From a virus, in the IMG/VR virus record IMGVR_UViG_3300040960_002449, positions 1-40,467 of that record: a stretch of 40,467 nt of DNA; one strand, given 5' to 3'. A program made the translations under genes and the position numbers. Below are positions 6,498 through 39,699 of the stretch, one piece after another (position 1 is the first letter of the stretch; the number at the start of each line of letters is the position of its first letter). Under the pieces are notes generated by a model, which had not been told where the DNA came from, did no database searches, and saw only the letters and a program-made list of their open reading frames with translations.

Positions 6498-9212
6498 ATG
6501 GAACAACAAGAATTTTTAGAAAGACTTTTTAATAAATTAATCATAGATCGTTTAAATTATAATCCTGTCACTAATATAGAAATTAATATATGTGAGATCA
6601 ATTCACTATTAGATAAACGAAGTGGTATTAACGTACAACTTAAAAGGTATGGTTATATAGGTATGGAAGTCAGAAAATGTTTAAGGAATATATATGGTGT
6701 TACTGAAGATGAATCTGAAATTTTATGGAATATGATTAGACTTCATTTAAAAAAATTAAATTTTGTAGAACACGCATGTGAGGTTTTATATGGAGATTAC
6801 ATACAATACGAATCCGACCCATATCGTTTTGATGGTTATGATTTGAAGGATATTGATGATTTTATTGATTTTATGGGTGAGATTGGATACGGTTCTAGTC
6901 AAAATGACCCACATAGTAATGAAAGAATTAATTTCTTAAATATGATGGACAGAAGTGACTACGAATACATTCAGAGTGAGTTATTTGAGTTAATAGAATC
7001 TTCTTGGGAACCAGATGATGAATATAGAACAATTAATGAAAGTGATGGACCTTATGGTGGTAAAATGTCTAATGTCGGTTTATTATATAGTAAATTAGAA
7101 GATCTGAAAAGACATGGAATATATAAAGGGGATAAGAAATATGATGATGTATTAAAACAGATAGAACAACTTAAAAAAAGTGGTGAAAAATATACAGAAC
7201 CAAAAAAAGGATTCTTTAAGGGTAAGATAGGCGATTATAAAGATAGAAAAAGATATGATGAATTTTCTGACTTCGAAAAAAAGATTTACGATTACCAAAA
7301 GGGGTATGATAACATAGATAAAAGATTGTTACAATATACAAATGACTTTATTAGTTATTATAATAATGTTTACCCTAAAGAAGTAGGTAACATGTTGTAT
7401 ACACCAAAATTAACCAACAAAGAAATTGCAAAATTTTTAACAAAACATTATAGAGAAGACATATACCCTAAATTGACTGGTTTATATAAAAACAAAATTC
7501 TAACACATGGTACTAAAGATTATAAATCGTTAGATGTCATAGATATAGATAAACACATAACCACAGGTACAGGTAATCAAGGTCATTTTGGTAGGGGTTT
7601 ATATTTAACGTCTAGTAGAAATGTCGGTAAACATTATGGTAAGACACAACCATTAGTTCTTCATAATATACAAAACCCATTTTTTATTATACCAGGAAAT
7701 AAAAATTATTATGGTAGTCATGACTTTAAGGGAGTACAATGTACAGGAAAATTAGATTTTAATTCTTTTGATGTAAGTATTATACCTAAAGAAGATGACG
7801 ATAATCAAAAAATATTAAACACTATAGAAAAATCCCCTAATTATAAAATGGTTTCTTATGGTGAGAGTATACCTGAATTAGATAAAATGTGGAAACAAAA
7901 TGCAAAAAAACTATGTTATGCTGATATGGTTAAGAACTTAGTAAATTATTTTGGGATTAGTGATGAACTAGCCAAAAAATTGGCTAACTATACTGAGTAT
8001 TCATATGAAGAATCTCCTGAGTTTGCTTCACTAACAGGTGCAAAGTCATTAGATAAAATTTACAAACAAAACAAATACGACTTAATTGTAACAAATAAAA
8101 ATACATCAGGAGAAGGTTTAGATCGATTTATGGATGCGGAAGTAATAGTTAAAGAACCAACATCTGTAGTTTCAATATTCCCAACACTAAATGCGATAAT
8201 GAAATCAGATGGTAATTCAATACATAGAGATTTAACTAGTTCGAATATACATAATGAGTCACACAAAAGAATTAAGAAAATATTAAGGGAGTATGATGAT
8301 GAAGATAAAGAGTTCGACCCACTTAACGATGATTTAGTTTCAAAAGAACAATACGAAAAAGTTTTTAAAATATTCGATAGTAATCCAGATAAGATATTTG
8401 AGGTACTAAAAGTTTTTGGGTTTAAAGATAATGAATTGGGTGAGACATACGAAAAAGAATATAATTTCATTCACAAGTATTTAACGGAATATAAAGATAG
8501 AACGCCAAAATATATAAGAATTGTTTTTGATGCAAATGATTTATCGGATATGTTTAAAGATGACAGAGATTATGATATACAAACAATGGTTAAAAATTAT
8601 CTAAGTGGTGATTGGGATTATGAACCTATATGGGAATGTATGGATTTTGATTCTTGGTTGTTCGATAAAATAGATGAATCTAATATTAAAACACTTAAAG
8701 AACACTATTTAGAAAATTTAGAAGGTGAAGAATCTGAAGATGATTTTATGGAGTTTGTTGAAAGTGAGTTTGGTAGTGAAATTGGTTGTGCCGCGAGTGA
8801 CGCTCAATACGCCGCAGATATAGATTATTTACATTCTGATTTTGAAAATGGTATCGAAGATTATCTAAGTGGTTTTGGTGGTAAACTACAGAGACCTGTA
8901 GATAAAGAAGGTAATACAGGATTTGGGTTAGAATATGTTGCAGATTTAGAAATAGGGGAACTTACACAGTCTCCTTTCTTTCAAGATTCTCTTTCGGGAA
9001 TTTTAGAAGATACATATCCTGATGATTTTTACGATATTTATAATGATATCATCGAATCAGAAAAAGAGGGTTGGAGTTCTGAATATAATTATTTCTTACC
9101 TGAAGACAAAATATCTATTAATACTGATAAACATTTTAGATATGGTGGTGCAGGAAATATAGACTGGAATTATTTTAATGAAATATTATCAGACAAACTA
9201 TCTTATTATTAA
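6498..9212 (+). CDS. large ADP-ribosyltransferase-like protein (Alt-like role proposed)
   Basis: The product is 904 aa. The part I recognise spans about 330-560: THGTKDYKSLDVID with His337, GHFGRGLYLTSSRNVGKHYG around 360-380, and MDAEVIVKEP with Glu548 near the end. This is the H...G-x-G-x-Y-L-T...E layout of ADP-ribosyltransferases of the polyvalent-protein/PARP-like type, which move ADP-ribose from NAD to a target. The N-terminus (MEQQEFLERLFNKLI) lacks the canonical tag, though T4 Alt also has a divergent one (MELITELFDE). Tag-like motifs are internal: TINES at about 185 and ESHKRIKKILREYDDE at about 587-602. The last 300 residues are acidic and unrecognised. T4 packages Alt and injects it to modify host RNA polymerase; a similar role is inferred. 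Alternative: a toxin-like polyvalent protein. Confidence 0.6.
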   Translation: MEQQEFLERLFNKLIIDRLNYNPVTNIEINICEINSLLDKRSGINVQLKRYGYIGMEVRKCLRNIYGVTEDESEILWNMIRLHLKKLNFVEHACEVLYGDYIQYESDPYRFDGYDLKDIDDFIDFMGEIGYGSSQNDPHSNERINFLNMMDRSDYEYIQSELFELIESSWEPDDEYRTINESDGPYGGKMSNVGLLYSKLEDLKRHGIYKGDKKYDDVLKQIEQLKKSGEKYTEPKKGFFKGKIGDYKDRKRYDEFSDFEKKIYDYQKGYDNIDKRLLQYTNDFISYYNNVYPKEVGNMLYTPKLTNKEIAKFLTKHYREDIYPKLTGLYKNKILTHGTKDYKSLDVIDIDKHITTGTGNQGHFGRGLYLTSSRNVGKHYGKTQPLVLHNIQNPFFIIPGNKNYYGSHDFKGVQCTGKLDFNSFDVSIIPKEDDDNQKILNTIEKSPNYKMVSYGESIPELDKMWKQNAKKLCYADMVKNLVNYFGISDELAKKLANYTEYSYEESPEFASLTGAKSLDKIYKQNKYDLIVTNKNTSGEGLDRFMDAEVIVKEPTSVVSIFPTLNAIMKSDGNSIHRDLTSSNIHNESHKRIKKILREYDDEDKEFDPLNDDLVSKEQYEKVFKIFDSNPDKIFEVLKVFGFKDNELGETYEKEYNFIHKYLTEYKDRTPKYIRIVFDANDLSDMFKDDRDYDIQTMVKNYLSGDWDYEPIWECMDFDSWLFDKIDESNIKTLKEHYLENLEGEESEDDFMEFVESEFGSEIGCAASDAQYAADIDYLHSDFENGIEDYLSGFGGKLQRPVDKEGNTGFGLEYVADLEIGELTQSPFFQDSLSGILEDTYPDDFYDIYNDIIESEKEGWSSEYNYFLPEDKISINTDKHFRYGGAGNIDWNYFNEILSDKLSYY

Positions 9213-23100: not shown

Positions 23101-25563
23101 TTAAGAGATTTTTATCACAATTTCTTCTTTTGCCTTAGAATAACTTACTTTTATTGTTTGTCCTTCTTCTACTCTACCACTTAGAATTTCTTCAGATACT
23201 GGATCCTCAATATGTTTTTGTATTGCCCTATTTAAAGGTCTCGCACCATATTCCTCATCGTACCCAACATCCACCAAATAATCTTTCGCAGTTTTATTTA
23301 TTTGTAGTGTGTAACCTATTTCGGACACCCTTTTGATTAATTTAACGATTTCTAAGTTAACAATCTTACCGATTTGTTCCTTAGTTAATGGTTTGAATAT
23401 AATAACATCATCTAATCTATTTAAGAACTCTGGTGGGAATTGTTTTTTAAGTTCATCGGTTAATAAACTGTCTTTTATCTCATCTTGTTTTTCCAATTTA
23501 GATTTAGTACCAAAACCAACACCTGTCCCAAAGTCTTGTAGTTTCTTAACGCCAACATTAGATGTCATTATAACCATACAGTTTTTAAAGTTAACCCTTC
23601 TACCTGCACTGTCAGTTAATTGTCCATCATCTAATAATTGTAATAATGTATTATATATTTCCTTATGTGCTTTTTCTATTTCATCAAATAATACAATAGA
23701 ATATGGTTTTCTTCTGACTTTTTCAGTAAGTTGTCCTCCTTCTTCGTGTCCTACATAACCAGGAGGTGAACCTATTAATCTAGAGATAGAGTGTTTTTCT
23801 TGAAACTCAGACATATCTAATCTAATCAATGAATCTTCATCACCGAACATATATTCCGCCAGTTTCTTTGCGATATGAGTTTTACCGACACCTGTGGGAC
23901 CTAAGAACATAAATGAACCTATGGGTTTCTTTGGGTTTCTAATACCTACCCTATTTCGTCTAAGAGACTTTGCAATCTTCTCTAACGCCATTTCTTGACC
24001 AATAATAGATTTCTCCATTTCTTTCTCCATCTCCAACATTCTCTTACCTTGATCACCACTAATTCTTTTTAGTGGGATACCTGTCATAGATGCAACCACT
24101 TCATTAACGTCTTCAGGGATTATTAGTTTTTTATCTTTACTTAAACTTTCTACCCATTTGTCCTTTTCAATGTCTAATTTCTCATTGACTATTCTTTCTT
24201 CGTCTCTTAATCTCGCCGCCTCTTCGTATTTTTGTTTTTTAACTACCTCACTCTTTCTATTTTTTATCTCTAAAATTTTATCTTCTAAGTCACTAATTGA
24301 CTTTGGGGGTTTAACATTAATCTGACTTCTAGAACCAACTTCATCCATAATATCAATCGCCTTATCGGGGAACTCTCTGTCTGTAATATATCTATCCGCC
24401 ATCTTAACACATTGTTCAATCGTCTCTGTTGGATAAGATACTTTATGGTAAGTTTCGTATGAATCTTTGATATTCATTAATATTTTGATAGTATCTTCTA
24501 CTGAAGGTGGCTCAATTATTACTTGTTGGAATCTTCTCGCCAATGCACCATCCTTCTCTATGTTTTCTCTAAATTCATCTAATGTGGTAGCACCAATCAA
24601 TTGTAAATCACCTCTCGCCAATGCGGGTTTTAATACATTCGCAGCGTCCATAGAACCACTTGTATTACCTGCACCTACCACATTGTGAACCTCATCTATA
24701 AATAATATAACATTATCTACCTCCATAAGTTCATCAACGACACCTTTAATTCTCTCCTCAAACTGACCTCTATATTTTGTACCCGCCACTAATGAAGTTA
24801 AATCTAATGATACAATTCTTTTATCTAACAATGTTCTAGGTGCGTCACCTTGCACAATTTTTAACGCCAACCCTTCTACTATTGTAGTTTTACCAACACC
24901 CGGATCACCAATAATAACAGGATTATTCTTTTTCTTTCTCGCCAATATCTGTGCAACTCTTTGGATTGACTCATCCCTACCAATTACAGGGTCAATTTTA
25001 CCTTCAGATGCCCTTTTAGTGACATCGATAGAAAAATTATCTAATATAGGTGTTTCATTAGATTTACTACTTTTTGATTTATTTTTACTTTGTCTACTTT
25101 TATTTTCACCTTCATTTTCCATAGGTTCTATCGCACTAACAATATTACTCTTATATCCTTTATATGAAACTTTCATACTTTTTAACATTGCAGACATTTT
25201 AGTTTTTACTTTAAGTGTTGCTAATAGTATATGTTGAGTGTCTAAATATTCGTCATTTAAGTTATCACACTCTTTTTCTGCACCCTTTAAAATGTTTTCT
25301 GTCATTTCCTCCAAAGGAAAATCTTTATTATTAATCTTCACATCATTATAATCTTCTTCCCTCATCAAAGACTTTTCTATACTTTTATGTAGTTTATCCA
25401 CATCAACACCCATTTTAACTAATGTCTTTATTGCATTATTATTATAATCGTTTATTAATGATATTATAATATGTTCAATTCTAACCTCATAATCACCATA
25501 AAATTTCGCTTGTTTTATGGACATATTTATGATCCTTTTAACTTTAGGTAATACTTTTTTCAT
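23101..25563 (-). CDS. clpC: ClpC-type AAA+ unfoldase
   Basis: The product is 820 aa, the usual ClpC length. Order: Clp N-terminal repeats (about 1-145), a Ser/Lys linker, AAA-1 with Walker A GDPGVGKT (219-226) and Walker B VILFIDEVH, a UVR-like middle segment (KKQKYEEAARLRDEE, about 442-456), AAA-2 with GPTGVGKT (555-562) and IVLFDEIEKAH, and the C-terminal domain. The loop GTGVGFGTKS has V-G-F at 682-684, which fits the [LIV]-G-[FL] ClpP-docking motif, so it could work with a ClpP. No clpP is visible here; the host's ClpP may be the partner. It has no tag. A minus-strand ATATTTAT element lies 19 bases upstream. Confidence 0.9.
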   Translation of the reverse strand: MKKVLPKVKRIINMSIKQAKFYGDYEVRIEHIIISLINDYNNNAIKTLVKMGVDVDKLHKSIEKSLMREEDYNDVKINNKDFPLEEMTENILKGAEKECDNLNDEYLDTQHILLATLKVKTKMSAMLKSMKVSYKGYKSNIVSAIEPMENEGENKSRQSKNKSKSSKSNETPILDNFSIDVTKRASEGKIDPVIGRDESIQRVAQILARKKKNNPVIIGDPGVGKTTIVEGLALKIVQGDAPRTLLDKRIVSLDLTSLVAGTKYRGQFEERIKGVVDELMEVDNVILFIDEVHNVVGAGNTSGSMDAANVLKPALARGDLQLIGATTLDEFRENIEKDGALARRFQQVIIEPPSVEDTIKILMNIKDSYETYHKVSYPTETIEQCVKMADRYITDREFPDKAIDIMDEVGSRSQINVKPPKSISDLEDKILEIKNRKSEVVKKQKYEEAARLRDEERIVNEKLDIEKDKWVESLSKDKKLIIPEDVNEVVASMTGIPLKRISGDQGKRMLEMEKEMEKSIIGQEMALEKIAKSLRRNRVGIRNPKKPIGSFMFLGPTGVGKTHIAKKLAEYMFGDEDSLIRLDMSEFQEKHSISRLIGSPPGYVGHEEGGQLTEKVRRKPYSIVLFDEIEKAHKEIYNTLLQLLDDGQLTDSAGRRVNFKNCMVIMTSNVGVKKLQDFGTGVGFGTKSKLEKQDEIKDSLLTDELKKQFPPEFLNRLDDVIIFKPLTKEQIGKIVNLEIVKLIKRVSEIGYTLQINKTAKDYLVDVGYDEEYGARPLNRAIQKHIEDPVSEEILSGRVEEGQTIKVSYSKAKEEIVIKIS

Positions 25564-28393: not shown

Positions 28394-29188
28394 ATGGATA
28401 TAAAAAGAATCTCAGAACAAGAAGTTAATGACATATTACAAAAGGAAGATATTGATTTATCTTCTTTTGAAGTAAGATCCACACTTAACCCAAAAATATT
28501 CGATAAAGAACAACACATGCATGAGGATGTAAGAAGAAGACTTCTTATGATTGCGGATGATTTCTTTGAAACACTGAATGTAGGTTGGGTAGATATTGAT
28601 GATATTATTTTAACTGGTAGTTTAGCGAACTTTAATTGGTCAAAATTTTCTGATGTAGACTTACATATATTAGTAGATTTTGGTGAAGTTGACGAAAACG
28701 AAGAATTAGTTAAAGAATACTTCAACTCCAAAAAGAATTTATGGAATGAAAAACACGACATAACTATTAAAGGTTATGATGTGGAATTATATATGCAGGA
28801 TACTGAAGAACCACATGTTTCTAGTGGGGTTTATTCTATTCTTTGGGATGGATGGGTAGTACAACCTGACGCAACTAAAAAAGAAATAGATTCTAAAAAA
28901 GTAGAACAAAAAGTTAATAATATTATAGATGCAATATATGATGTTTATTATATGTACAAAAATGAGGAATACGATAAAACTATCAGAATGGTTAAAAACC
29001 TAAAAGAAAAAATCAAAAAAATGAGACAAACAGGTTTAGATCGTGAAGGTGAGTATTCTTTTGAGAATATTGCATTTAAAGTATTAAGAAGAACTATGTA
29101 TTTAGATAAATTAAGTGAAATTGAGACTAAGGCTTATGATAAATCTTTAACATTAGATGAGTCTATGTTAAGAATAAAAACATTATAA
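28394..29188 (+). CDS. predicted nucleotidyltransferase
   Basis: The product is 264 aa. LTGSLANFNWSKFSDVDLHI (73-92) carries the Pol-beta-fold signature G-S-x9-D-x-D (Gly75, Ser76, Asp87, Asp89), and a third acidic position follows at DVELYM (Glu131). C-terminally there is a helical region (KVEQKVNNIIDAIYDVYYMY). These enzymes move a nucleotide onto a protein, RNA or small molecule. The N-terminus MDIKRISEQEVNDILQKED resembles the tag (S-E-Q...I-L-Q-K-E), so it may be packaged. Relatives occur in structural regions of large phages with unknown targets. Confidence 0.78.
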   Translation: MDIKRISEQEVNDILQKEDIDLSSFEVRSTLNPKIFDKEQHMHEDVRRRLLMIADDFFETLNVGWVDIDDIILTGSLANFNWSKFSDVDLHILVDFGEVDENEELVKEYFNSKKNLWNEKHDITIKGYDVELYMQDTEEPHVSSGVYSILWDGWVVQPDATKKEIDSKKVEQKVNNIIDAIYDVYYMYKNEEYDKTIRMVKNLKEKIKKMRQTGLDREGEYSFENIAFKVLRRTMYLDKLSEIETKAYDKSLTLDESMLRIKTL

Positions 29189-29220
29189 AAATTAATTTGC
29201 GTTTTTTTATAAAAAATGCA

Positions 29221-29228
29221 ATATTTAT
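29221..29228 (+). promoter_or_regulatory. late-type promoter element of the head operon
   Basis: ATATTTATTTAATAAAAC begins 24 bases before the ATG at 29245. It is preceded by an AT-rich hairpin (29197-29221). It is the last such element until 34551, so it may serve the five following genes as well. Confidence 0.5.
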
Positions 29229-29244
29229 TTAATAAAACATAATT

Positions 29245-29565
29245 ATGGGAACATATTTAACGGGGACTTATTCTGTATTACACACAGATGGCACTGCAGA
29301 CTTCACTAATTTCGTATATAGCGCAGTTTATTTCAATTCTGGTGCGACATATACTATTAATGGTACTAACGTTGTTGGGGTTGCGGGTGAGACATTAGAC
29401 ATCATAGTTAAAGAAGATGGTACAACACTAAGTACAGGATATCTTTTATTAGGTAACCCAATAGCACCACAAACTAAAATAAAAACAGGTTTAATTACTG
29501 CAACTGGTGGTACAGAACAATATCAATTCGTAAACATTAAAACAGGTTTACCAACTAACGGATAA
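29245..29565 (+). CDS. small beta-rich, probably structural protein, 106 aa
   Basis: Residues alternate Thr, Gly, Val, Tyr and Asn (MGTYLTGTYSVLHTDGTADF, NSGATYTINGTNVVGVAGET, TLSTGYLLLGNPIAP), giving a predicted all-beta protein with no charged clusters, no cysteine and no tag. The composition resembles virion decoration, collar or fibre-base proteins. It is the first gene of the head operon. Family not recognised, so the structural call is inference. Confidence 0.6.
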   Translation: MGTYLTGTYSVLHTDGTADFTNFVYSAVYFNSGATYTINGTNVVGVAGETLDIIVKEDGTTLSTGYLLLGNPIAPQTKIKTGLITATGGTEQYQFVNIKTGLPTNG

Positions 29566-29585
29566 AACGAAATAAATATAAAAAA

Positions 29586-31424
29586 ATGAGAAAAAATATC
29601 AATCCAAAAACATTAAAAGGTCAAGACAAACTTAACAGGATGCTAGATCTTATGGGGAAAATGAATACTTTAAATGAAAGTAAATCATATTCTGAATTAG
29701 AATTAATCAAAAAAGGACCTAATGGTGTTGTTTATGGTATCATTAGAGAGAATCATGATTACTTTATTAAAACTTCAAATAAAACTTCAGGACAATTCTT
29801 AGCCGAAGACTTTAGTTATATCGGAGGACTGCAAAACAAATATGATGAAAGATATAAGTCATATGCAGAAGCAATCAAACATTTGAATATGAAGTTCGAT
29901 ATGTTGAATGAGTCGTATGGTATTGAATCAAACACAAATATCTTCGAATCAGATGGTGTTGCCTTTGGTGGTGGTGTTGGATTTGGGTTTGTTATGGAAG
30001 AAGAAGACGATGAAGATCAAAATGAAGGAGAAAAAGAAATCATCTCTGACGCAGATGCAGACTTAGAAGAACAAAAGAAAGTTCTTAAGGTTGACGCACC
30101 TAAAGCAGAAGAACCTGTAGAAGATGAAGTGGAGGATGAAGTTGATGTTGATATGGGTGGAGACATTGCAGACGTTGATTTCGGTGAAGAAGAAACTGAA
30201 GAAGGTGGAGATGAGTTCGGAGATGAAGGTATGGAAGATGAAGAAGGTGACGACAACACTAAAAAGATTCAAAAGTACACTGGTAAGATCGGACAGATGT
30301 TAAGAGATATGGATGAAGCAGATTCTGACTTAGAAAAATATGTAATAAATTCAATTATATCGGCAATGCATTTAGATGAAATGGATGATGAAGATAAAGA
30401 AGATATTATTGCGAAGTTAGAAGGTGAGGAAGACGAAGAAGGAATGGATGATTTCGATATGGAAGGTGGTGACGAAGAAGTTGATGTAGATTTAGACGCT
30501 GAAGAAACGCCAGAAGAAGGTGGTGAAGAATTATCTGAAGGTAAAGAAGAAAAAGGTAAGGAACTTGAAATCACCCCAGATATGATTGCAATGTTACTAA
30601 AAAAAGGTGAATGTGACTGTGGAGGACATAAATTAGTATATAAGGCAAAAGAAGAAAAGAAAGAAGAAAAAAAGGAGGATAAAGAAGAAAAAAACGAAGG
30701 TAGAGTTTTTTCTAAAAAACAATTAATGGAATCTTTCTTAAGAAGAGAAACTAAAAAGTCACTTAAAAAAGTTATTAAAGAAAGAAGAGAACTTTGTGAA
30801 CAATGTGGTGGTAGATTAACTGAGGGGATGTGTATGGAATGTGATATGAATGAACACCATATGGGTTCTAAGGCAACTTATGATAGATACCCACATTATG
30901 ATAAAGAAGCATACATTATGGATGAAGAAGACATAATGAATGAAAAACTCGTAGGTAAACAACATAAATTAGATAAAAACAATAACGGTAAGATTGATGC
31001 AGAAGACTTCAAAATGTTACGTAAAGGAAGAAAAGATAGAAGACGTAATATAGATGAGGAGGATATGTCAGTAATGGATGCAATTGCAACAGGACAAGGA
31101 TACTTATCCGCAACAGATGATTTGGATAGAGATTTCGATGGTATCCCTAATCGTTTAGATATGGATAACAACGATGATGGTAAATTAGACTTTGAGATGG
31201 GTAGAGGTGTTGACTTTATTGAATTAGATATCGATTTCTTAAGAAACGATAGTCCTGGTACTAAAGAAAAGGAAAGAACTACAACTTCACCAACGACTAA
31301 ACCAGGAAAAGGTGATAAGTGGAGAACTATTAAACGTCCTAAAGTTGATCCAAGACCTAAGGCGGGAGATCAAAATATAAGTAAACCAAAACCTTCTTAC
31401 AGAAGAAGAGGTATGTTTAGATAA
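29586..31424 (+). CDS. large acidic protein, probable prohead core or internal protein
   Basis: The product is 612 aa. Residues 1-110 include GQDKLNRMLDLMGKMNTLNE and GPNGVVYGIIRENHDYFIK. Residues about 130-345 are dominated by Asp, Glu and Gly. A zinc-ribbon-like LCEQCGGRLTEGMCMECDM lies near 402-420. DKNNNGKIDAEDF is an EF-hand/dockerin-like loop, and DRDFDGIPNRLDMDNNDDGK resembles a thrombospondin type 3 repeat, so calcium binding is likely. The C-terminus is basic. Sites fitting L-x-E (LNE twice, LME, LTE) are spread along the chain, as in T4 core proteins that gp21 cuts to peptides. Scaffold or core is the preferred reading. Its stop overlaps the next ATG by one base. Confidence 0.6.
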   Translation: MRKNINPKTLKGQDKLNRMLDLMGKMNTLNESKSYSELELIKKGPNGVVYGIIRENHDYFIKTSNKTSGQFLAEDFSYIGGLQNKYDERYKSYAEAIKHLNMKFDMLNESYGIESNTNIFESDGVAFGGGVGFGFVMEEEDDEDQNEGEKEIISDADADLEEQKKVLKVDAPKAEEPVEDEVEDEVDVDMGGDIADVDFGEEETEEGGDEFGDEGMEDEEGDDNTKKIQKYTGKIGQMLRDMDEADSDLEKYVINSIISAMHLDEMDDEDKEDIIAKLEGEEDEEGMDDFDMEGGDEEVDVDLDAEETPEEGGEELSEGKEEKGKELEITPDMIAMLLKKGECDCGGHKLVYKAKEEKKEEKKEDKEEKNEGRVFSKKQLMESFLRRETKKSLKKVIKERRELCEQCGGRLTEGMCMECDMNEHHMGSKATYDRYPHYDKEAYIMDEEDIMNEKLVGKQHKLDKNNNGKIDAEDFKMLRKGRKDRRRNIDEEDMSVMDAIATGQGYLSATDDLDRDFDGIPNRLDMDNNDDGKLDFEMGRGVDFIELDIDFLRNDSPGTKEKERTTTSPTTKPGKGDKWRTIKRPKVDPRPKAGDQNISKPKPSYRRRGMFR

Positions 31425-31822
31425 TGAAATTAGTTTATATAAATAAAATCGGACAAAACTGGAAGGGGAATTACATTTATGAATTCCTCTTTTCAGATAT
31501 TTTAGAAGATATAGATGGTGAGGGATGGGATTCGTACCCATCATCTGGAAATCCAGAACCACCAGAAGGAAAATTTATAAAAAAGTCAGGTGTATTAAAT
31601 ACTGATTTAAAATTAGATTTAGTACAAGAATCTGACTCATTTGCAATGTGGGACGCAGTTGACGGAATAGTTGCAATGGCTTGGGAAAATATGGAAGGGT
31701 ATGATGAGTATCCAGAAAAAAGATTATACTTCTCTTTTGGGGAGGATATTTCTTCAGTAGAAGATAAACTATATGAAAAAGATATGGTAATAATATACGA
31801 AAAAGAAACAATAAACACGTAA
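31424..31822 (+). CDS. conserved head-module hypothetical, 132 aa
   Basis: It starts on the last base of the preceding stop (TAATG), so it is coupled to the acidic protein. The first strand KLVYINKIGQNWKGNYIYEF is followed by an acidic proline-rich turn (GWDSYPSSGNPEPPEGKF) and LDLVQESDSFAMWDAVDGIVAMAWE. The overall impression is a small alpha/beta fold with net negative charge. No tag, no cysteines. Likely a structural or assembly factor by position only. Confidence 0.6.
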   Translation: MKLVYINKIGQNWKGNYIYEFLFSDILEDIDGEGWDSYPSSGNPEPPEGKFIKKSGVLNTDLKLDLVQESDSFAMWDAVDGIVAMAWENMEGYDEYPEKRLYFSFGEDISSVEDKLYEKDMVIIYEKETINT

Positions 31823-31825
31823 GAT

Positions 31826-32332
31826 ATGGGAAAGAAAATCAAAATTTATGAATCAGAAATTAAAAGAGCAACTAGACGTAAATTAATGGAACGTTATGTT
31901 GATGAGGACTATGAGATGAGAGATACTTATAGTAAAAGAGATTTTAAACCTACACCAAAAGAAAGAGGTGTTGAGGGTGTATTTGGTAAGTATGGAGACG
32001 ATATAGATCCTGCGGTTGTTAGATATATGAGAAAAAATCCTGATCATATTCTAAGAAGAATGGCAAAATTATATCCTGACATCTATATGAGACATATTCC
32101 ATTACAATCTAATACTGAATTAGAAATGGATGATGTAATGATGGGTGAGGCGGAAGAAACTACTGTTAAGCAAACTAAATATACTCCAGATGAAGTAAAA
32201 AGAGCGGAACAAGAAGGTATGGGTATATCTGTTAATGGTTCAGTTACTTTAGATAAAGATGGAGGTATGACAGTAACAACTAAAAATGAATCTACACAAA
32301 AACTATTTAAAAAATTCTTAAATAGAAAGTAA
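31826..32332 (+). CDS. tagged head-module protein, 168 aa
   Basis: MGKKIKIYESEIKRATRRKL, then MERYVDEDYE, is a longer form of the tag with E-S-E-I-K-R and a V-D-E site near residue 27. The middle contains DIDPAVVRYMRKNPDHILRRMAKLYPDIYM, a conserved-looking helical segment. The C-terminus (ISVNGSVTLDKDGGMTVTTKNE) is a beta hairpin. It lies 3 bases after the previous stop and 3 before the next start. Possibly a minor head or core protein. Confidence 0.6.
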   Translation: MGKKIKIYESEIKRATRRKLMERYVDEDYEMRDTYSKRDFKPTPKERGVEGVFGKYGDDIDPAVVRYMRKNPDHILRRMAKLYPDIYMRHIPLQSNTELEMDDVMMGEAEETTVKQTKYTPDEVKRAEQEGMGISVNGSVTLDKDGGMTVTTKNESTQKLFKKFLNRK

Positions 32333-32335
32333 GTT

Positions 32336-33052
32336 ATGACAAAAGGGGATATCATAAGAAAACTAATTTCAGAAAAATTTGCGTCAAAGGCACAACAAAG
32401 GTTCTTTTATGCGATGGCGAATAAAGACACTAAAAAAGGTAGAAAGTTTAAAAAGTGGGCAAAAGAATTCTCTGATGATACTGATTTTGATGACTTACCT
32501 GAAAAAGTTTCTGAGGAAGAAAAAGAAACTAAAAATCCAAAGATGAAAAAAGGTGATTTAGTAGAATATATAAATTCTAAAAAAATGATGGGTGAACAAA
32601 GAAGAGGTAATAGACCTATAGTTGTACCAGAAATTTCAGGACCTGATTTTCGTATTGTTGTACAATGGTTAGAAAAACTTAGAGAAAGTGGTGTTATTAA
32701 TATGTTTGGTTGTTCCCCTATGTTAAATTGGACAGAAAAAGATTTACATAGATGGTTATATGGACAAAAACAAGATCCAGAGTCTATAGAAGAACAAATA
32801 GAAGAGTTAGAATATGAAAATGAGGATGGTGATAATGATTCTGATATAGAAATGTTAGAAAATCAATTAGAAACTATAAACTATTTATTAGAAAATAAAC
32901 AAGCAGTTAGAGATGTATTAATTAGAACTGCCTTAACGAGAGTAGAAAATACTGATGGTAATTATGAAACTAAAAACGTACAACGTATTTTTGAGAGATT
33001 AGCGAAGGAAGTATTTATTATGTGGACAGAAGTTATTTACGGAAATTTTTAA
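32336..33052 (+). CDS. tagged head-module protein, 238 aa
   Basis: MTKGDIIRKLISE/KFASKAQQ gives a short tag with I-S-E at residue 13. SKAQQRFFYAMANKDTKKG, then RKFKKWAKEFSD resembles the S-K-A-Q-Q-R motif of a small phage domain (DUF3008-like), placed here directly after the tag. A second part (residues 100-238) includes FRIVVQWLEKLRESGVINM and a coiled coil (IEEQIEELEYENEDGDNDSD). Function unknown; gene order suggests a structural or internal protein. Confidence 0.6.
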   Translation: MTKGDIIRKLISEKFASKAQQRFFYAMANKDTKKGRKFKKWAKEFSDDTDFDDLPEKVSEEEKETKNPKMKKGDLVEYINSKKMMGEQRRGNRPIVVPEISGPDFRIVVQWLEKLRESGVINMFGCSPMLNWTEKDLHRWLYGQKQDPESIEEQIEELEYENEDGDNDSDIEMLENQLETINYLLENKQAVRDVLIRTALTRVENTDGNYETKNVQRIFERLAKEVFIMWTEVIYGNF

Positions 33053-33062
33053 AATTTAAATT

Positions 33063-34490
33063 ATGAAAAGAAGAAATATTATTAATGAGGTAACCAAAAG
33101 AATTGTTAATGAAAAATTAAGAATAAATAGGTTAACTGAAGCAATCGAATACGATCCTGAACATCCAGAAAGAATGAATCCGGGATTAGAAAGAAGTCTT
33201 AGAAGTGGTGAACACATATTTGGTAAGAGTAAATCTATTCCTGTTGGTTCAGAATCACAAAATTATTCTGAGAAATTGGCAAGTAAAAGATTTAAAGAAA
33301 TCATTAATAAAGTAAAAAGATATCATGGAGTACAAAACATTAACCCTATGATGATGCAACAGATGTTTCAAATTATGGGTGAAGTTAGTCAGATTGAATC
33401 TAGACATAAAGAAGCTTTAGAACAATTGGCAATCGATATAGTTTCTGAGGAATTCGATATTCCAGATCAAATGTTAGAGGCTACTTTATCACCTCCAGGT
33501 TCAGACTTAGGTTTTGGAGATGACGATGAAGAAGAGGAAGAAGATTATGGTTCTGATTTTGAAACTCCGAAAGCACCAAAAAGTGCGGAAAGAATGGAAG
33601 AATTAGAAATGGAAGTAGATAAAAGAAGAGTAATAAATGCTTTAATGCAAGGGGCTTCTAAAAAAGGACATTATATTTTCCATATGGTTGCAGATGAATT
33701 AGATACCATAGATCCTAGACTTATGGGGTTATATGGTAAACTAATGTCTTTGGCGGACTTCCAATACTGGGTGATTCCTGATACTACTATGACTGGTCAA
33801 GCTGGTGGTGTGGAGAAGATTGAATGGAGAAAGGCTGAAGCACCTGAAGATTCTGATGAGGAAGAAGAAATGGATAAGGTTAATGTAGAGGAAGGTGATG
33901 AGATACCTGTAGTAGTGGCAAAAGCATGGATATTTCCACTTTTAGTGCATGAACTTATTAAAGGGACATTAGAACTATCTGCGATAAATTGGGCAGATGG
34001 TCACTTAGACTTTGAGGAACAAGCGGAAGTAATTAAAAGGGCTGACACACCAGAAGGTGAAATATGGGGAATGAGATTAGGTCCTGGTATGTGGGAAAAA
34101 TTCTTAGATTGTGTAGGGGTAGAAAATTACGATATAAAACAATGGTTATTTCAAGAGTTAACTAAGTTACCAGCAAAACAATTTCATGAATTTATGAAAG
34201 AAATTTTAAGTGGTAGTCAAAAGTGTAAAGAAGTGATTCAAACATTAAAAGACTTACACGAAGAAGATCCTTCAGATAGTTTAGAGGATATGTTTGATGA
34301 CACAGGTTATGATGAAATGGATGATATCTTAGATAACTTAGGGATTGAAACCGAAGAAGAACCAACTACTGACGAACCAAAAGAATTAAATTATTCTGAA
34401 ATGTCACCTAGAGAAATACAAGATTTAATAGACGATGCATTAGATAGAGGTGATTTCGATATGGTATCAAAATTACATAAATACTTATAA
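33063..34490 (+). CDS. tagged conserved head-module protein, 475 aa
   Basis: MKRRNIINEVTKRIVNEKLR and RINRLTEAIEYD give two or three I/L-x-E sites (IINE, IVNE, RLTE) in the first 30 residues. Acidic linkers (DDDEEEEEDYGSDFE near 165, DSDEEEEMDKVNVEEGDE near 275) separate folded regions such as KKGHYIFHMVADELDTIDPR, LMGLYGKLMSLADFQYWVIP and AWIFPLLVHELIKGTLELS. The length and position, two genes before the terminase, suggest an internal or assembly protein, but I do not recognise it. A terminator follows. Confidence 0.6.
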   Translation: MKRRNIINEVTKRIVNEKLRINRLTEAIEYDPEHPERMNPGLERSLRSGEHIFGKSKSIPVGSESQNYSEKLASKRFKEIINKVKRYHGVQNINPMMMQQMFQIMGEVSQIESRHKEALEQLAIDIVSEEFDIPDQMLEATLSPPGSDLGFGDDDEEEEEDYGSDFETPKAPKSAERMEELEMEVDKRRVINALMQGASKKGHYIFHMVADELDTIDPRLMGLYGKLMSLADFQYWVIPDTTMTGQAGGVEKIEWRKAEAPEDSDEEEEMDKVNVEEGDEIPVVVAKAWIFPLLVHELIKGTLELSAINWADGHLDFEEQAEVIKRADTPEGEIWGMRLGPGMWEKFLDCVGVENYDIKQWLFQELTKLPAKQFHEFMKEILSGSQKCKEVIQTLKDLHEEDPSDSLEDMFDDTGYDEMDDILDNLGIETEEEPTTDEPKELNYSEMSPREIQDLIDDALDRGDFDMVSKLHKYL

Positions 34491-34512
34491 TATATTATTT
34501 ATTTATTTATTT

Positions 34513-34539
34513 AAATCCCATCTTAGGTGGGATTTTTTT
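34513..34539 (+). terminator. terminator closing the head operon
   Basis: AAATCCCA (34513-34520) and TGGGATTT (34528-34535) pair across a 7-base loop and lead into seven Ts. Confidence 0.8.
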
Positions 34540-34550
34540 ATTTAAACAAC

Positions 34551-34558
34551 ATATTTAT
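34551..34558 (+). promoter_or_regulatory. late-type promoter element
   Basis: ATATTTATTAATAAAAAG starts 21 bases before the ATG at 34572 and follows the terminator directly, so a new transcript begins here. Confidence 0.5.
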
Positions 34559-34571
34559 TAATAAAAAGACA

Positions 34572-35642
34572 ATGGTAGGTACTTTACATCCTAATTTTAA
34601 AAAATTAATAAGAAAATTTATTGGGTCTCAACACCATAATTATGAAGATGATTACATGAGGTATGTTGAGGATATGATTAAATACTTTGATGATATAGAT
34701 CAAGAAGATATATTTTCAGGTGTTTTTAATTATATTATTGAGGAAGAAGATGAAAATCCTTTAGAATATATAGATACTAATTTATTAAATGGATATTTTT
34801 ATGGTGATGATATAATAAAAATATTAAGAGATTCTGGATGGATGGAAAAATATTTTACTCTTAATAGTTACAAAGATCATGTAACTCCACAAGGTAGAGA
34901 AATATCAGTATTCGATGATATTAAATGGGAAGGTGAAACCCCATATTTAATTCTATATGGTTGGGATGAATTTCAAGAATTATTTTATAGTAAAGATAGA
35001 GATTTAGTAGAACGTGTTTTAGGTGAAGATTGGGCGGAACTTTATAGTATTGATAGAGTTGATTTTATGGATGAAGTATGGAGTGAACTGGATGAAAAAT
35101 CTTTACAACATATAAAAGATTATATTAAGGATAATGGTTTTATTGGTAGAGAATTAGACTATGATGAAGATCCAGATGGTGGTGGATTAAGGGAAGATAT
35201 GTTAGAAGACAACGATTTATTAGGTGAATTAATAAATGATGAGGTTATGTTTGACGAATTAAAAAGAGAGTTAAATAATTTTTATAGATGGGCGTATGAA
35301 AGTGCGGCGGAAGATGAATTGTTTAAATCTTTAAAAGATGAGATAGAATCACTTTTAGGTTCTGAAGGTGAATGGGATATGGTAAAATCAAAAAAAGAAG
35401 GGGGTTCAGATAGACATATTTTAAAATTTGATGTTAGTAAAATATTTATGGATATATTAGAACGGTTTGTTGGATGTGAGGGGAATTTACCAGAAGAAGA
35501 ATATAGTTATTTTTTAGAGGTTTTAGGTAAAACTTTGGACTGTGAGGGTGATTTATTACAGGCGCCTGATATGGGATATTTTTATCCTGACCACACAAAA
35601 GTAAGTGAACATTTAAATTACAATGTATTAGGAAACTTATAA
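34572..35642 (+). CDS. acidic hypothetical protein, 356 aa
   Basis: I use the ATG at 34572 (MVGTLHPNFKKLIRKFIG) because the longer frame starts inside the terminator and crosses the promoter. The N-terminus is basic, and the motif NFKKLIRKFIGSQ is only weakly tag-like. The rest is very rich in Asp, Glu, Tyr and Trp (DDYMRYVEDMIKYFDDIDQ, DWAELYSIDRVDFMDEVWSE), like the gene at 12766 and the end of the gene at 6498, which suggests a shared acidic module. No domain recognised. It is followed after one base by the next tagged gene. Confidence 0.62.
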   Translation: MVGTLHPNFKKLIRKFIGSQHHNYEDDYMRYVEDMIKYFDDIDQEDIFSGVFNYIIEEEDENPLEYIDTNLLNGYFYGDDIIKILRDSGWMEKYFTLNSYKDHVTPQGREISVFDDIKWEGETPYLILYGWDEFQELFYSKDRDLVERVLGEDWAELYSIDRVDFMDEVWSELDEKSLQHIKDYIKDNGFIGRELDYDEDPDGGGLREDMLEDNDLLGELINDEVMFDELKRELNNFYRWAYESAAEDELFKSLKDEIESLLGSEGEWDMVKSKKEGGSDRHILKFDVSKIFMDILERFVGCEGNLPEEEYSYFLEVLGKTLDCEGDLLQAPDMGYFYPDHTKVSEHLNYNVLGNL

Positions 35643-35643
35643 T

Positions 35644-36498
35644 ATGAAAATAAAACTAACAGAAAGTCAATACTTAAAAGTTATTACTGAAAATCAAAAC
35701 CCTAACGTTGATAGGTTATTACAAAAGTTTTTTGATGATATTAGACTCTTAGATGATGACGAAAAACTATATTATTTTTTCGATGTATATGGATTTGATG
35801 ATAGGATGATGGAAGTTAGTGATAGACTATATGATTGGTTTAGATACAGTCTTTTAAGTGGTATTAAAATAATAAATTATAGAACCCTTAGTAAATACCA
35901 AAATAAAATTAATAGTCTTTTAGAAGTGATTGCCACAAAAGAAAGTAAAAAAATAATAGATTCTAATAAAAACGATTTAAAAAAAATTAAAGAATTAATT
36001 AAATTAGAAAGTATTATTCCGAGATATTATGAAAGTAAAATTCTAAAAGAATTGATTGATGGATTATTGTTTGATTCCGTACAATATTTGTTTAAAAACT
36101 ATGAACCTAAAGAAGCGATTAAACAATCATCCATTCTATCCGATCAATTAGGTAGAAAAAGAATGGAAAATATAGTACCATTAGTTAAAGATTTTGCAGA
36201 AAAAAATGGGTTAACTATTATACCTAAACATAAAGGGTTCACTTTCCAAAAAGATGAAGGTAGTATGGTTAGGGATTTAATTAATTATATGAAAGATATA
36301 CCTGAATTACCAAAGAAAACAAAAAGAGGGTTTTTAGATTATATTGGTAGTAATTATGGGGCTGGACAATATTCTACTTTTTGGAGTGCGGTTAATAAAG
36401 CAGGAATCATACAAAAAGTAGGTGGTGGTAATAACGTCACATATGAATTAGGACCTAACTACAAAGCGTATGAAGAAGGTAATGTAGTCGCATTTTAA
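35644..36498 (+). CDS. tagged hypothetical protein, 284 aa
   Basis: MKIKLTESQYLKVITENQNP is a perfect tag with an I-T-E site at residue 16. The body is helical and Lys/Asp-rich (VIATKESKKIIDSNKNDLKK). The last 80 residues (KTKRGFLDYIGSNYGAGQYS, then TFWSAVNKAGIIQKVGGGNN) look like a small winged-helix-type domain and might bind DNA. It lies directly before the terminase gene. Packaged DNA-binding protein is a tentative reading. Confidence 0.65.
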   Translation: MKIKLTESQYLKVITENQNPNVDRLLQKFFDDIRLLDDDEKLYYFFDVYGFDDRMMEVSDRLYDWFRYSLLSGIKIINYRTLSKYQNKINSLLEVIATKESKKIIDSNKNDLKKIKELIKLESIIPRYYESKILKELIDGLLFDSVQYLFKNYEPKEAIKQSSILSDQLGRKRMENIVPLVKDFAEKNGLTIIPKHKGFTFQKDEGSMVRDLINYMKDIPELPKKTKRGFLDYIGSNYGAGQYSTFWSAVNKAGIIQKVGGGNNVTYELGPNYKAYEEGNVVAF

Positions 36499-36528: not shown

Positions 36529-39500
36529 ATGGATAGAGCGGAACAACTTAAAATATTTGCTCGATGTTTAGGTGATCCAACATATGCGATAGAAACGTTT
36601 TTAAAGACATTTGATTTAACTCAGAAAGGTATGGTACCTTTTAAGTTGTATTATAAACAAAAAGAAATCATTAGATCATATGAAGAAAACAATCGTAATC
36701 TGGTAACCAAACCTCGACAGGCAGGTGTATCTACAACTACCGCAGCATATATTGCAGTTAAAACTGCGTTTGGTGATCCAGATAACCCACATAAAGTACT
36801 TATACTCGCCAACAAACAGACATTAGCACAAGAATTCTTAAAGAAAGTAAAAGACTTTTTAGATCAAATACCTTATTGGGTTTGGGGGTTAGATGAATCA
36901 ACAGATTATTTAGAAATAAACTCAAAAGGACATCTTAAATTAAAATCTAATGGGTGTGAGATTAGGGCACTTGCAACATCTAAAGATGCATTAAGGGGTT
37001 TTACGCCTACATTCTTAGTTATGGACGAGGCGGCGTTCATCGACAATGGGGCAGAGGTATTTGGTGCTGCATTAGCGTCATTAGGTACTGGTGGTAAGAT
37101 TGCACTTATATCTTGTGTGACTGATGATACATTTATTTTTACTGATAAAGGTTTAAGGCAGGTTTCTGATTTTGTAAATTATGAAAAACCTGATAATCCG
37201 AATGAGGGTTATTACGTAGATAGTTATGGTATATTAGGTAAAGATGAAGTTAGGGAATCTAATATTATGGTTAATAATGGGTTACAAGATACAATTAAAA
37301 TAACTACTACAAATAGTTTTTTAGAAGGTACATTAACACATAAAGTATGGGCATATAGAAGCGATTCTAATTCGTATGAATGGACACCTATGGGTGATTT
37401 AAAAGTTGGGGATTATGTAAATATACAATACGGGTACGAGATTTTTGGTAATGATGATGAAATTAACCATAATTATAAATTTAATAATAAAGAAAAACAA
37501 CCTAATAAAATTTATAATAAAATAGACACCAACCTAAGTTATTTAATAGGGCTATACCTATCTGAAGGTTCTTGTTATAAGAAATATAATGATAATGGTG
37601 ATTTAGTAGGTGTGGACATAACTATCACTTGTGGTGATTATATTGGTGATTCTATTAGGCGTGCTGGATTTAATTATAGTTGTTATGATGGGTTGCACTA
37701 CAAAATATCTTCTAAGTATCTAGGGTCACTATTAGAGTCTTTAGGGTTAGACTTATCACTAAAAGCAACAGAAAAGTTTATACCTAATAAATTATTATCA
37801 CTATCCAAAGAAAATACATCTGCAATGATAAGGGGGTTTATGGATGGTGATGGTTATTCTGATAGTGTTAGAGGTAGAATAGGGTTAAATATATCTTCTA
37901 AGAAGATGTGTTTACAAATAAGACAATTATTGATGAATTACGGAGTATTAACCGACTACCAAGAAGGTATTAATATGGGTTCTGATTTAGTTCCAGTAGA
38001 AAGTAAGTATTATAGAATATCAGCAACTTCTTTAGATGCATTTACATACTATGAAAAAATAGGTTTTGATTTTGATAGAAAGCAATCTAAAAAAATATCA
38101 CTAAAAGAGGTGAATATAAATAATAGGTATAGAATAATACCCAATGGTAAGACTATCATTAGGGATATCATAGATGATAATGGTTTAGTTAGAAAATTTA
38201 GAGATAGTGAACTAAGCGTTAATTCACTTAGGGTAAGAGAAAAAAATAAAAGTGGTAACCTATCTAAAAACATATTTTCTAATTTCATTGATTATATCAC
38301 AAATACTTTAAATGTTGATATAAATGGGTATGATATAGATAAAATTTTAATGGAGAATAGTAAGTGGGTTCCTATCACTAAAATAGAAGAATCTAAAAAT
38401 AAGACTTATGACTTCTCATTACCACATACCGAAGATTTTTGGTGTCATTCTGTAATATATAACGGTATTTTAGGACACCAAACACCTAATGGAATGGATC
38501 CATTATATTATAAAACATATGATAAGTCTAAAACAGGAGATAACAACTTTAATGTTGTTGAGATGAAGTGGTATCAAGACATTAGATATAATAGAGGTTT
38601 GTATTGGGTTAGAGGTGATGAAAAAGAAGAAGAGATTAAATGTGATACATTGGGTAGAACTAAACTTAGGTGGGAATATATGGATAACATATATGAAACT
38701 GATGAATCAACTATAGATAATTACGAAGTAATGATTAAAGATGGGTGGAAACCATTGTCTCCTTGGTATGAAGAAATGGCGGCAGATATGGGTGACCCTA
38801 AGAAAATCGCACAAGAACTTGATGTATCATTCATCGGATCAGGTGGTAATGTTGTTGATGATGAATATGTAAGTTATCATGAAGAGAATTTTGTTTCTGA
38901 TCCAAACTTCTCCGCGGAGATAGAGAAAACTATGTGGATATGGAAAAAACCCGAAGTTGGTCACAAATATGTTATGGGGGTTGATGTGAGTAGAGGTGAT
39001 GGTAAAGATAGTTCTACTATTGTTATATTAGACTTTGAAAACTTAGAACAAGTTGCGGAATTTAAACATAAGTTACCTCCTGATATGTTGGCAGAAATTG
39101 TTTATAAGTATGGTAATATGTATAATGCATATACAATTGTGGACATTACTGGTGGTATGGGTGTTGCAACAGTCTTAAAACTGTTGGAGATGGAATATAA
39201 ACATCTTCATTATGACGACCCTAAAAGTAGAAAGTTATCTGAGAAATATGCAAAGACTGCATATAAACAAGGTGATAAAGTACCAGGATTTAATGTCGGT
39301 AACACACGTCTACAAATGGTATCTGAATTAGAAGAACATATTAGAGAGAATAAAACTATTATACGTTCACAAAGAATGATATCAGAACTTAAAACATTTG
39401 TTTATAAAAATGGTAGACCCGATCATATGGAAGGTTATCATGATGATATAATTATGGCTTACGCTATGGCGATATTCATTGTACAAACATCGTTTAAAAA

Positions 39501-39699
39501 ATTAGAACAAGTGGAGAAACAGACTAAGGCAATGTTAGAGAGTTGGGTAAATGTATCTAATAAAGAGACAAAACCGATGTTTAGTGATCAACAACACGTT
39601 AATCCTTTCTATACCAATACACCAACGTATAACCCAAAACAACCAAATAATGGTAATAATGATAATGGTGAGTACAATTGGTTATTCGGAATTAAATAG
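36529..39699 (+). CDS. terminase large subunit (gp17-like) interrupted by an intein
   Basis: The precursor is 1056 aa; without the 456-aa intein the exteins total 600, close to T4 gp17 (610). N-extein: a variant Walker A TKPRQAGVSTTT (60-71) and Walker B FLVMDEAAF (162-170). The coupling motif I-S/T-P-N-G is split by the intein after Ser195. C-extein: the nuclease domain with VMGVDVSRGDGKDSST (first catalytic Asp about 819), a second acidic site in TIVDITGGMG, and HDDIIMAYAMA near the end. It packages DNA by ATP hydrolysis through the portal and cuts concatemers. Splicing is essential, because the intein breaks the ATPase motif III. The portal gene follows 55 bases later. Confidence 0.93.
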   Translation: MDRAEQLKIFARCLGDPTYAIETFLKTFDLTQKGMVPFKLYYKQKEIIRSYEENNRNLVTKPRQAGVSTTTAAYIAVKTAFGDPDNPHKVLILANKQTLAQEFLKKVKDFLDQIPYWVWGLDESTDYLEINSKGHLKLKSNGCEIRALATSKDALRGFTPTFLVMDEAAFIDNGAEVFGAALASLGTGGKIALISCVTDDTFIFTDKGLRQVSDFVNYEKPDNPNEGYYVDSYGILGKDEVRESNIMVNNGLQDTIKITTTNSFLEGTLTHKVWAYRSDSNSYEWTPMGDLKVGDYVNIQYGYEIFGNDDEINHNYKFNNKEKQPNKIYNKIDTNLSYLIGLYLSEGSCYKKYNDNGDLVGVDITITCGDYIGDSIRRAGFNYSCYDGLHYKISSKYLGSLLESLGLDLSLKATEKFIPNKLLSLSKENTSAMIRGFMDGDGYSDSVRGRIGLNISSKKMCLQIRQLLMNYGVLTDYQEGINMGSDLVPVESKYYRISATSLDAFTYYEKIGFDFDRKQSKKISLKEVNINNRYRIIPNGKTIIRDIIDDNGLVRKFRDSELSVNSLRVREKNKSGNLSKNIFSNFIDYITNTLNVDINGYDIDKILMENSKWVPITKIEESKNKTYDFSLPHTEDFWCHSVIYNGILGHQTPNGMDPLYYKTYDKSKTGDNNFNVVEMKWYQDIRYNRGLYWVRGDEKEEEIKCDTLGRTKLRWEYMDNIYETDESTIDNYEVMIKDGWKPLSPWYEEMAADMGDPKKIAQELDVSFIGSGGNVVDDEYVSYHEENFVSDPNFSAEIEKTMWIWKKPEVGHKYVMGVDVSRGDGKDSSTIVILDFENLEQVAEFKHKLPPDMLAEIVYKYGNMYNAYTIVDITGGMGVATVLKLLEMEYKHLHYDDPKSRKLSEKYAKTAYKQGDKVPGFNVGNTRLQMVSELEEHIRENKTIIRSQRMISELKTFVYKNGRPDHMEGYHDDIIMAYAMAIFIVQTSFKKLEQVEKQTKAMLESWVNVSNKETKPMFSDQQHVNPFYTNTPTYNPKQPNNGNNDNGEYNWLFGIK
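37114..38481 (+). mobile_element. intein with LAGLIDADG endonuclease and C-terminal Gln
   Basis: Residues 196-651 of the precursor (456 aa) form the intein. Block A is CVTDDTFIFTDKG with Cys1; block B is SFLEGTLTHKVWA (T-x-x-H). Homing endonuclease motifs are LIGLYLSEG (340-347 region) and IRGFMDGDG (434-442). Block F/G is KTYDFSLPHTEDFWCHSVIY, then NGILGHQ, followed by Thr652 of the C-extein. The last intein residue is Gln rather than the usual Asn, which is known in a minority of inteins. The insertion point, in terminase motif III, is a typical conserved target. Confidence 0.9.

Follow-up and report, generated by a model that had tools for sequence, protein, structure and literature searches.

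The terminase gene and its insert

The window, by which we mean the whole 40,467-nucleotide stretch of viral DNA analyzed here (positions 1 to 40,467 of IMG/VR record IMGVR_UViG_3300040960_002449), contains a single open frame of 1056 aa at 36529–39699 that encodes the terminase TerL. The frame comprises two exteins and, between them, an intein carrying a LAGLIDADG endonuclease, with the following parts:

36529..37113, + strand: N-extein of TerL, 195 aa, from the ATPase P-loop region to ...GGKIALIS (Pfam Terminase_6N)
37114..38481, + strand: intein with LAGLIDADG endonuclease, Cys1 ... GlyHisGln456, 456 aa (empty sites, AlphaFold, Foldseek)
37114..37116, + strand: Cys1, putative step-1 nucleophile, block A, invariant among the aligned family members
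37330..37341, + strand: block B, T73-L-T-H76, with Ser or Thr at position 73 and His76 in all aligned members
37540..37572, + strand: LAGLIDADG motif 1, YLIGLYLSEGS, with acidic residue E151 (aligned members)
37828..37863, + strand: LAGLIDADG motif 2, IRGFMDGDGYSD, with acidic residue D246 (Pfam LAGLIDADG_3)
38404..38481, + strand: blocks F and G, TYDFSLPHTEDFWCHSVIYNGILGHQ, with D433, H445, H455 and Q456 (family alignment)
38482..39699, + strand: C-extein of TerL, from Thr+1, with TPNG, the C-motif and then the nuclease domain

When an intein-free allele of the same terminase (L004) was compared to T4 gp17 (3ezk, 3cpe) using phmmer, E-values of 3e-23 to 5e-22 were obtained, and its alistpngmd stretch aligned with tttpngln of gp17 (3ezk, E 2.9e-23). 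By homology the host protein is a T4 gp17-type terminase, and in the alignment the insert directly precedes the Thr of TPNG, so that it interrupts the ATPase coupling motif (motif III, or C-motif). Judged from this position, TerL is likely to need splicing in order to work, and the unspliced protein would be inactive.

Elsewhere in the window, a ClpA/ClpB-like AAA ATPase of 820 aa is encoded on the minus strand at 23101–25563 (phrog_4871, ATP-dependent protease). Most of the large open reading frames (e.g. 6498–9212 and 29586–31424) were left without a hit by Pfam, PHROGs and NCBIfam, and nothing in the phage collection matched the region 29000–36498 at the DNA level; the window thus belongs to a poorly sampled phage lineage.

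Intein boundaries and empty sites

Relatives were gathered by searching with the C-extein alone, which returned 80 viral contigs. The sequence ...GTGGKIALIS/TPNG... was contiguous in 73 of these (with small variants such as KISLIS and TPHG), while the remaining seven carried an intein at the IS/TP point. The intein-free allele L004 was identical to the window in the N-extein (100%) and nearly so in the C-extein (99%). An earlier note on this DNA had placed an intein at 37114–38481, splitting IS/TPNG in terminase motif III, and had predicted that relatives with contiguous IS-TPNG would exist; the exact empty sites bear out both statements. The segment is an in-frame intein, C1VTDDTF...NGILGHQ456, followed by TPNG, and its removal gives a computed TerL of 600 aa, the spliced length that had been proposed.

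The residues at the two junctions differ (S/C and Q/T), so the boundary cannot slide and the terminal residue is Gln, as the note had read it. A one-off mutation or sequencing error was ruled out, since the inteins of L002, L022 and others also end in Gln. The note had named a boundary with a canonical Asn as a possible refutation, and an Asn does lie six residues upstream of Gln456. Ending the intein at this N450 (YN/GILGHQT) would, however, place Gly at +1, where it provides no nucleophile, and would leave six extra residues in the product, whereas the 73 empty alleles define IS/TP exactly. This boundary was rejected, and we give any alternative of this kind next to no credence.

Intein anatomy and predicted fold

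The NCBIfam model intein_Nterm (TIGR01445) matched intein residues 1–78 (25.5 bits, cutoff 24.5), and Pfam LAGLIDADG_3 matched the second endonuclease motif (E 1.9e-8). An AlphaFold model based on an alignment of 46 members of the family (A2) gave a confident intein and LAGLIDADG endonuclease fold (pLDDT 92.6, pTM 0.92). The best solved structures found for it by Foldseek were the TliVMA intein (7qss, E 7.5e-21), PI-PfuI (1dq3) and PI-PkoII (2cw7), and the endonuclease fold was also linked to PI-SceI, PI-PfuI and I-SceI.

The features expected of a class 1 intein were found in Cys1 and Thr+1, T73 and H76, D433 and H445, the predicted fold, and the precise in-frame absence of the insert from homologues. 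Class 1 inteins end in a penultimate His and a terminal Asn; His455 fits this pattern, but residue 456 is Gln. Among the aligned representatives, D433 was invariant, as was H445, although most rows had been retrieved with a pattern that already contained this His; H455 was present in 43 and Gln456 in 41 of 46. H445 was taken as F:13 from its ten-residue spacing to H455. The two endonuclease motifs, which the note had described as intact with an acidic residue in each, indeed have E151 within LIGLYLSEG and D246 within GFMDGDG, as expected together with the fold for a LAGLIDADG homing endonuclease. On motif content and modeled fold, the insert is classified as a class 1 intein that contains a homing endonuclease of the bipartite LAGLIDADG type.

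A family of mostly Gln-ended inteins at the terminase site

Further members were sought in IMG/VR with intein patterns, the block F motif WCHSVx(Y/F)N and the pattern NGxxxH[N/K/Q/H]TPNG. The intein end was defined as the position before T and clusters were cut at 90% identity. Approximately 82 distinct inteins (<90% identical) were found at the TerL site, in diverse TerL proteins; 70 clusters were full-length, and all 70 begin S/C. Gln ended 73 clusters (70 HQ, two EQ and one TQ; one EQ is probably a duplicate fragment) and Asn the other nine (five HN, four SN). The Gln is thus not peculiar to the window intein, and it looks like a stable family trait rather than a defect. Pairwise identity among the first 46 inteins ranged from 24 to 83% (median 39%), and their C-extein identity fell to as low as 15%.

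The last two intein residues were included only in the NGxxxH[N/K/Q/H]TPNG pattern, which admits Asn but demands His before it. A search artefact was rejected as the source of the Gln majority, as the patterns either stop before the last residue or admit Asn, Lys, Gln and His there. Block F residues W443–V447 were partly fixed by the search, and their conservation carries no weight. Nor is Gln imposed by the insertion site, since nine family clusters and the intein of Microcystis phage Mic1, at the homologous site, end in Asn.

Members of the family were found only in environmental phage sequences. A search of genome contigs returned a single locus, L104 (1776–1800), on a contig filed under a Thermoplasmatales MAG. 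Its intein is 83% identical, and block G and the start of the TPNG extein are missing from it in frame; either the allele is broken or the assembly of a phage contig went wrong there. Among the isolated phages of the phage collection no close member was found, the best matches being Perkons and Mic1 at 24–28% identity, of which the Perkons match lies at a different site (the P-loop). No account of this family was found in the open literature (open-licence papers). The TerL-site inteins are a new and sizeable family, while Gln-ended inteins and inteins in the TerL C-motif were already known. In uncultured phages, inteins are thus widespread at the coupling motif of TerL.

Several members showed additional insertions. 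In seven of 70 distinct members a second, Asn-ended intein ended exactly nine residues upstream (HN/TGGxxxLIS/C or close), making the middle extein a nine-residue peptide; examples are L147/L091/L102, and also L110, L123, L140, L154, L196 and L197. L091 carries yet another intein, its third, within the nuclease domain (GYHDD/C...HN/C), for a total of 1800 aa. In three loci (L096:3792-7244, L101:2-5293 and L100:4419-7852) TerL is apparently broken into separate open reading frames inside other inteins, with e.g. ...PRQQGK/CVLDET... on one frame and ...LSHN/TTIS on the next; in L101 there are further frames between. These look like the ‘fractured gene’ split-intein arrangement.

Gln and Asn ends through the tree

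On a phylogenetic tree of 46 members the Asn rows needed five changes, a number that was also obtained over the 5–95% range of bootstrap trees with outgroups, and a tree of 70 members needed six Gln/Asn state changes. The Asn rows sat at or near the tips with Gln sisters adjoining; for this reason the ancestral end residue was most likely Gln, on a tree whose root is not securely placed and whose two outgroups fail to group. Sister pairs with differing ends (L113 HQ and L172 HN; L098 HQ and L096 SN; L145 TQ and L166 HN) point to repeated exchange, in one lineage with loss of the penultimate His as well. Ser-Asn replaced His-Gln in four members (L096, L223, L224 and L228), and those present on the tree adjoined HQ sisters. 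Among the 46 representatives, Gln was always encoded by CAA or CAG and Asn by AAC or AAT, so that each exchange costs at least two base changes. Gln was also retained where the endonuclease was shortened or had lost motif residues (L105, 254 aa; L162, 341 aa; L143, L155, L147 and L148), which suggests selection on splicing and not on homing alone. It would be a bet at even odds that Gln, in this large family of phage inteins, is a stable terminal residue maintained by selection and no stage of decay, and that the active site has repeatedly been readjusted to the last residue.

Gln-ended inteins, few of which have been studied so far, are seen in a review as stages following the loss of a catalytic residue, and the same review accepts Gln as a class 1 variant (PMC4031507). 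The family could accordingly represent a state of decay, with poor splicing or cleavage only, on its way to extinction. The Pol II inteins of Pyrococcus abyssi and Methanoculleus, which are slow with Gln and faster with Asn, would agree with this (PMC4031507), whereas in the Chilo iridescent virus (CIV) RNR intein Gln supports better splicing than Asn does (PMC4031507). Gln-ended inteins, namely those of CIV RNR and Pyrococcus Pol II, splice in the laboratory (PMC4031507, PMC8175363). Since 73 of 82 clusters have retained Gln at a median intein identity of 39%, and an essential gene would be unlikely to keep a dead insert, we regard decay as improbable. The family, with some 82 natural variants of which most end in Gln and several have changed independently to Asn, all at a single site, allows the post-loss-stage reading to be put directly to the test in closely related natural pairs.

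The earlier note had also suggested that a splicing step in a late gene can serve as a switch for timing or conditions. An intein retained as a regulator of packaging, its slow Gln step serving as a delay, would suit an insert in the ATPase coupling motif, and a noncanonical mycobacteriophage intein is known to tune precursor levels (PMC5050341). However, 73 of 80 close relatives have TerL without the intein, so the gene needs no such role in order to work, and Asn-ended sisters share the site; the suggestion is not supported, and we rate it a little lower still than decay. No condition sensor was found, and nothing in the sequence bears on conditional splicing.

Selection and mobility

When compared to its closest well-separated relative (L022, 74% aa identity), the window intein had a dN of 0.18 and a dS of 1.17, indicating purifying selection. 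Between the window and L002, the intein differed at 7 of 1368 bases and the exteins at 32 of 1800 (Fisher p 0.001; one independent pair), and the L002 C-extein was 3 of 1215 bases from that of the intein-free L005. This fits a recent passage of the intein from one terminase allele to another; the excess similarity could also have arisen by ordinary recombination. Active homing, which the note had considered possible, is plausible. In the family as a whole, intein and extein identity were correlated (Spearman 0.38, Mantel 0 of 1000), which points to much descent within lineages as well.

Proposed mechanism and comparison with known inteins

Our preferred reading, to which we assign a probability of roughly 0.88, is that TerL carries a class 1 intein with a LAGLIDADG endonuclease, belonging to a family for which Gln is normal and predicted to splice in four steps via Gln456. 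An acyl shift at Cys1 would be followed by transfer to Thr+1; Gln456, assisted by H445 and H455, would then cyclize to a glutarimide instead of a succinimide, and a final shift to the peptide bond would yield the 600-aa terminase. The endonuclease would copy the element into intein-free terminase alleles.

The inteins of CIV RNR and of P. abyssi and P. horikoshii Pol II resemble the window intein in the terminal Gln at G:7 and the class 1 layout, but reside in other host proteins and at other sites than TerL. The two Pyrococcus proteins are, moreover, mini-inteins (185 and 166 aa, respectively) with Cys+1, in contrast to the Thr+1 and full LAGLIDADG endonuclease of the window intein. TliVMA, PI-PfuI and PI-PkoII (7qss, 1dq3, 2cw7) share the two-domain fold according to Foldseek, with just 12–16% identity and in other host proteins. 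Inteins in mycobacteriophage TerL are well established, including in the C-motif, and that of Chandler gp6 was spliced in a reporter (PMC5050341); this intein, TerL6-f, likewise interrupts the C-motif of a terminase_6-type TerL, a likeness drawn from its published description (PMC5050341). The Mic1 TerL intein (MN013189) occupies the homologous site (ALLTG/C...HN/TPKG) and has the class 1 layout at ~24–28% identity, but it ends in Asn, is 368 aa long and is preceded by Gly, where the window has Ser.
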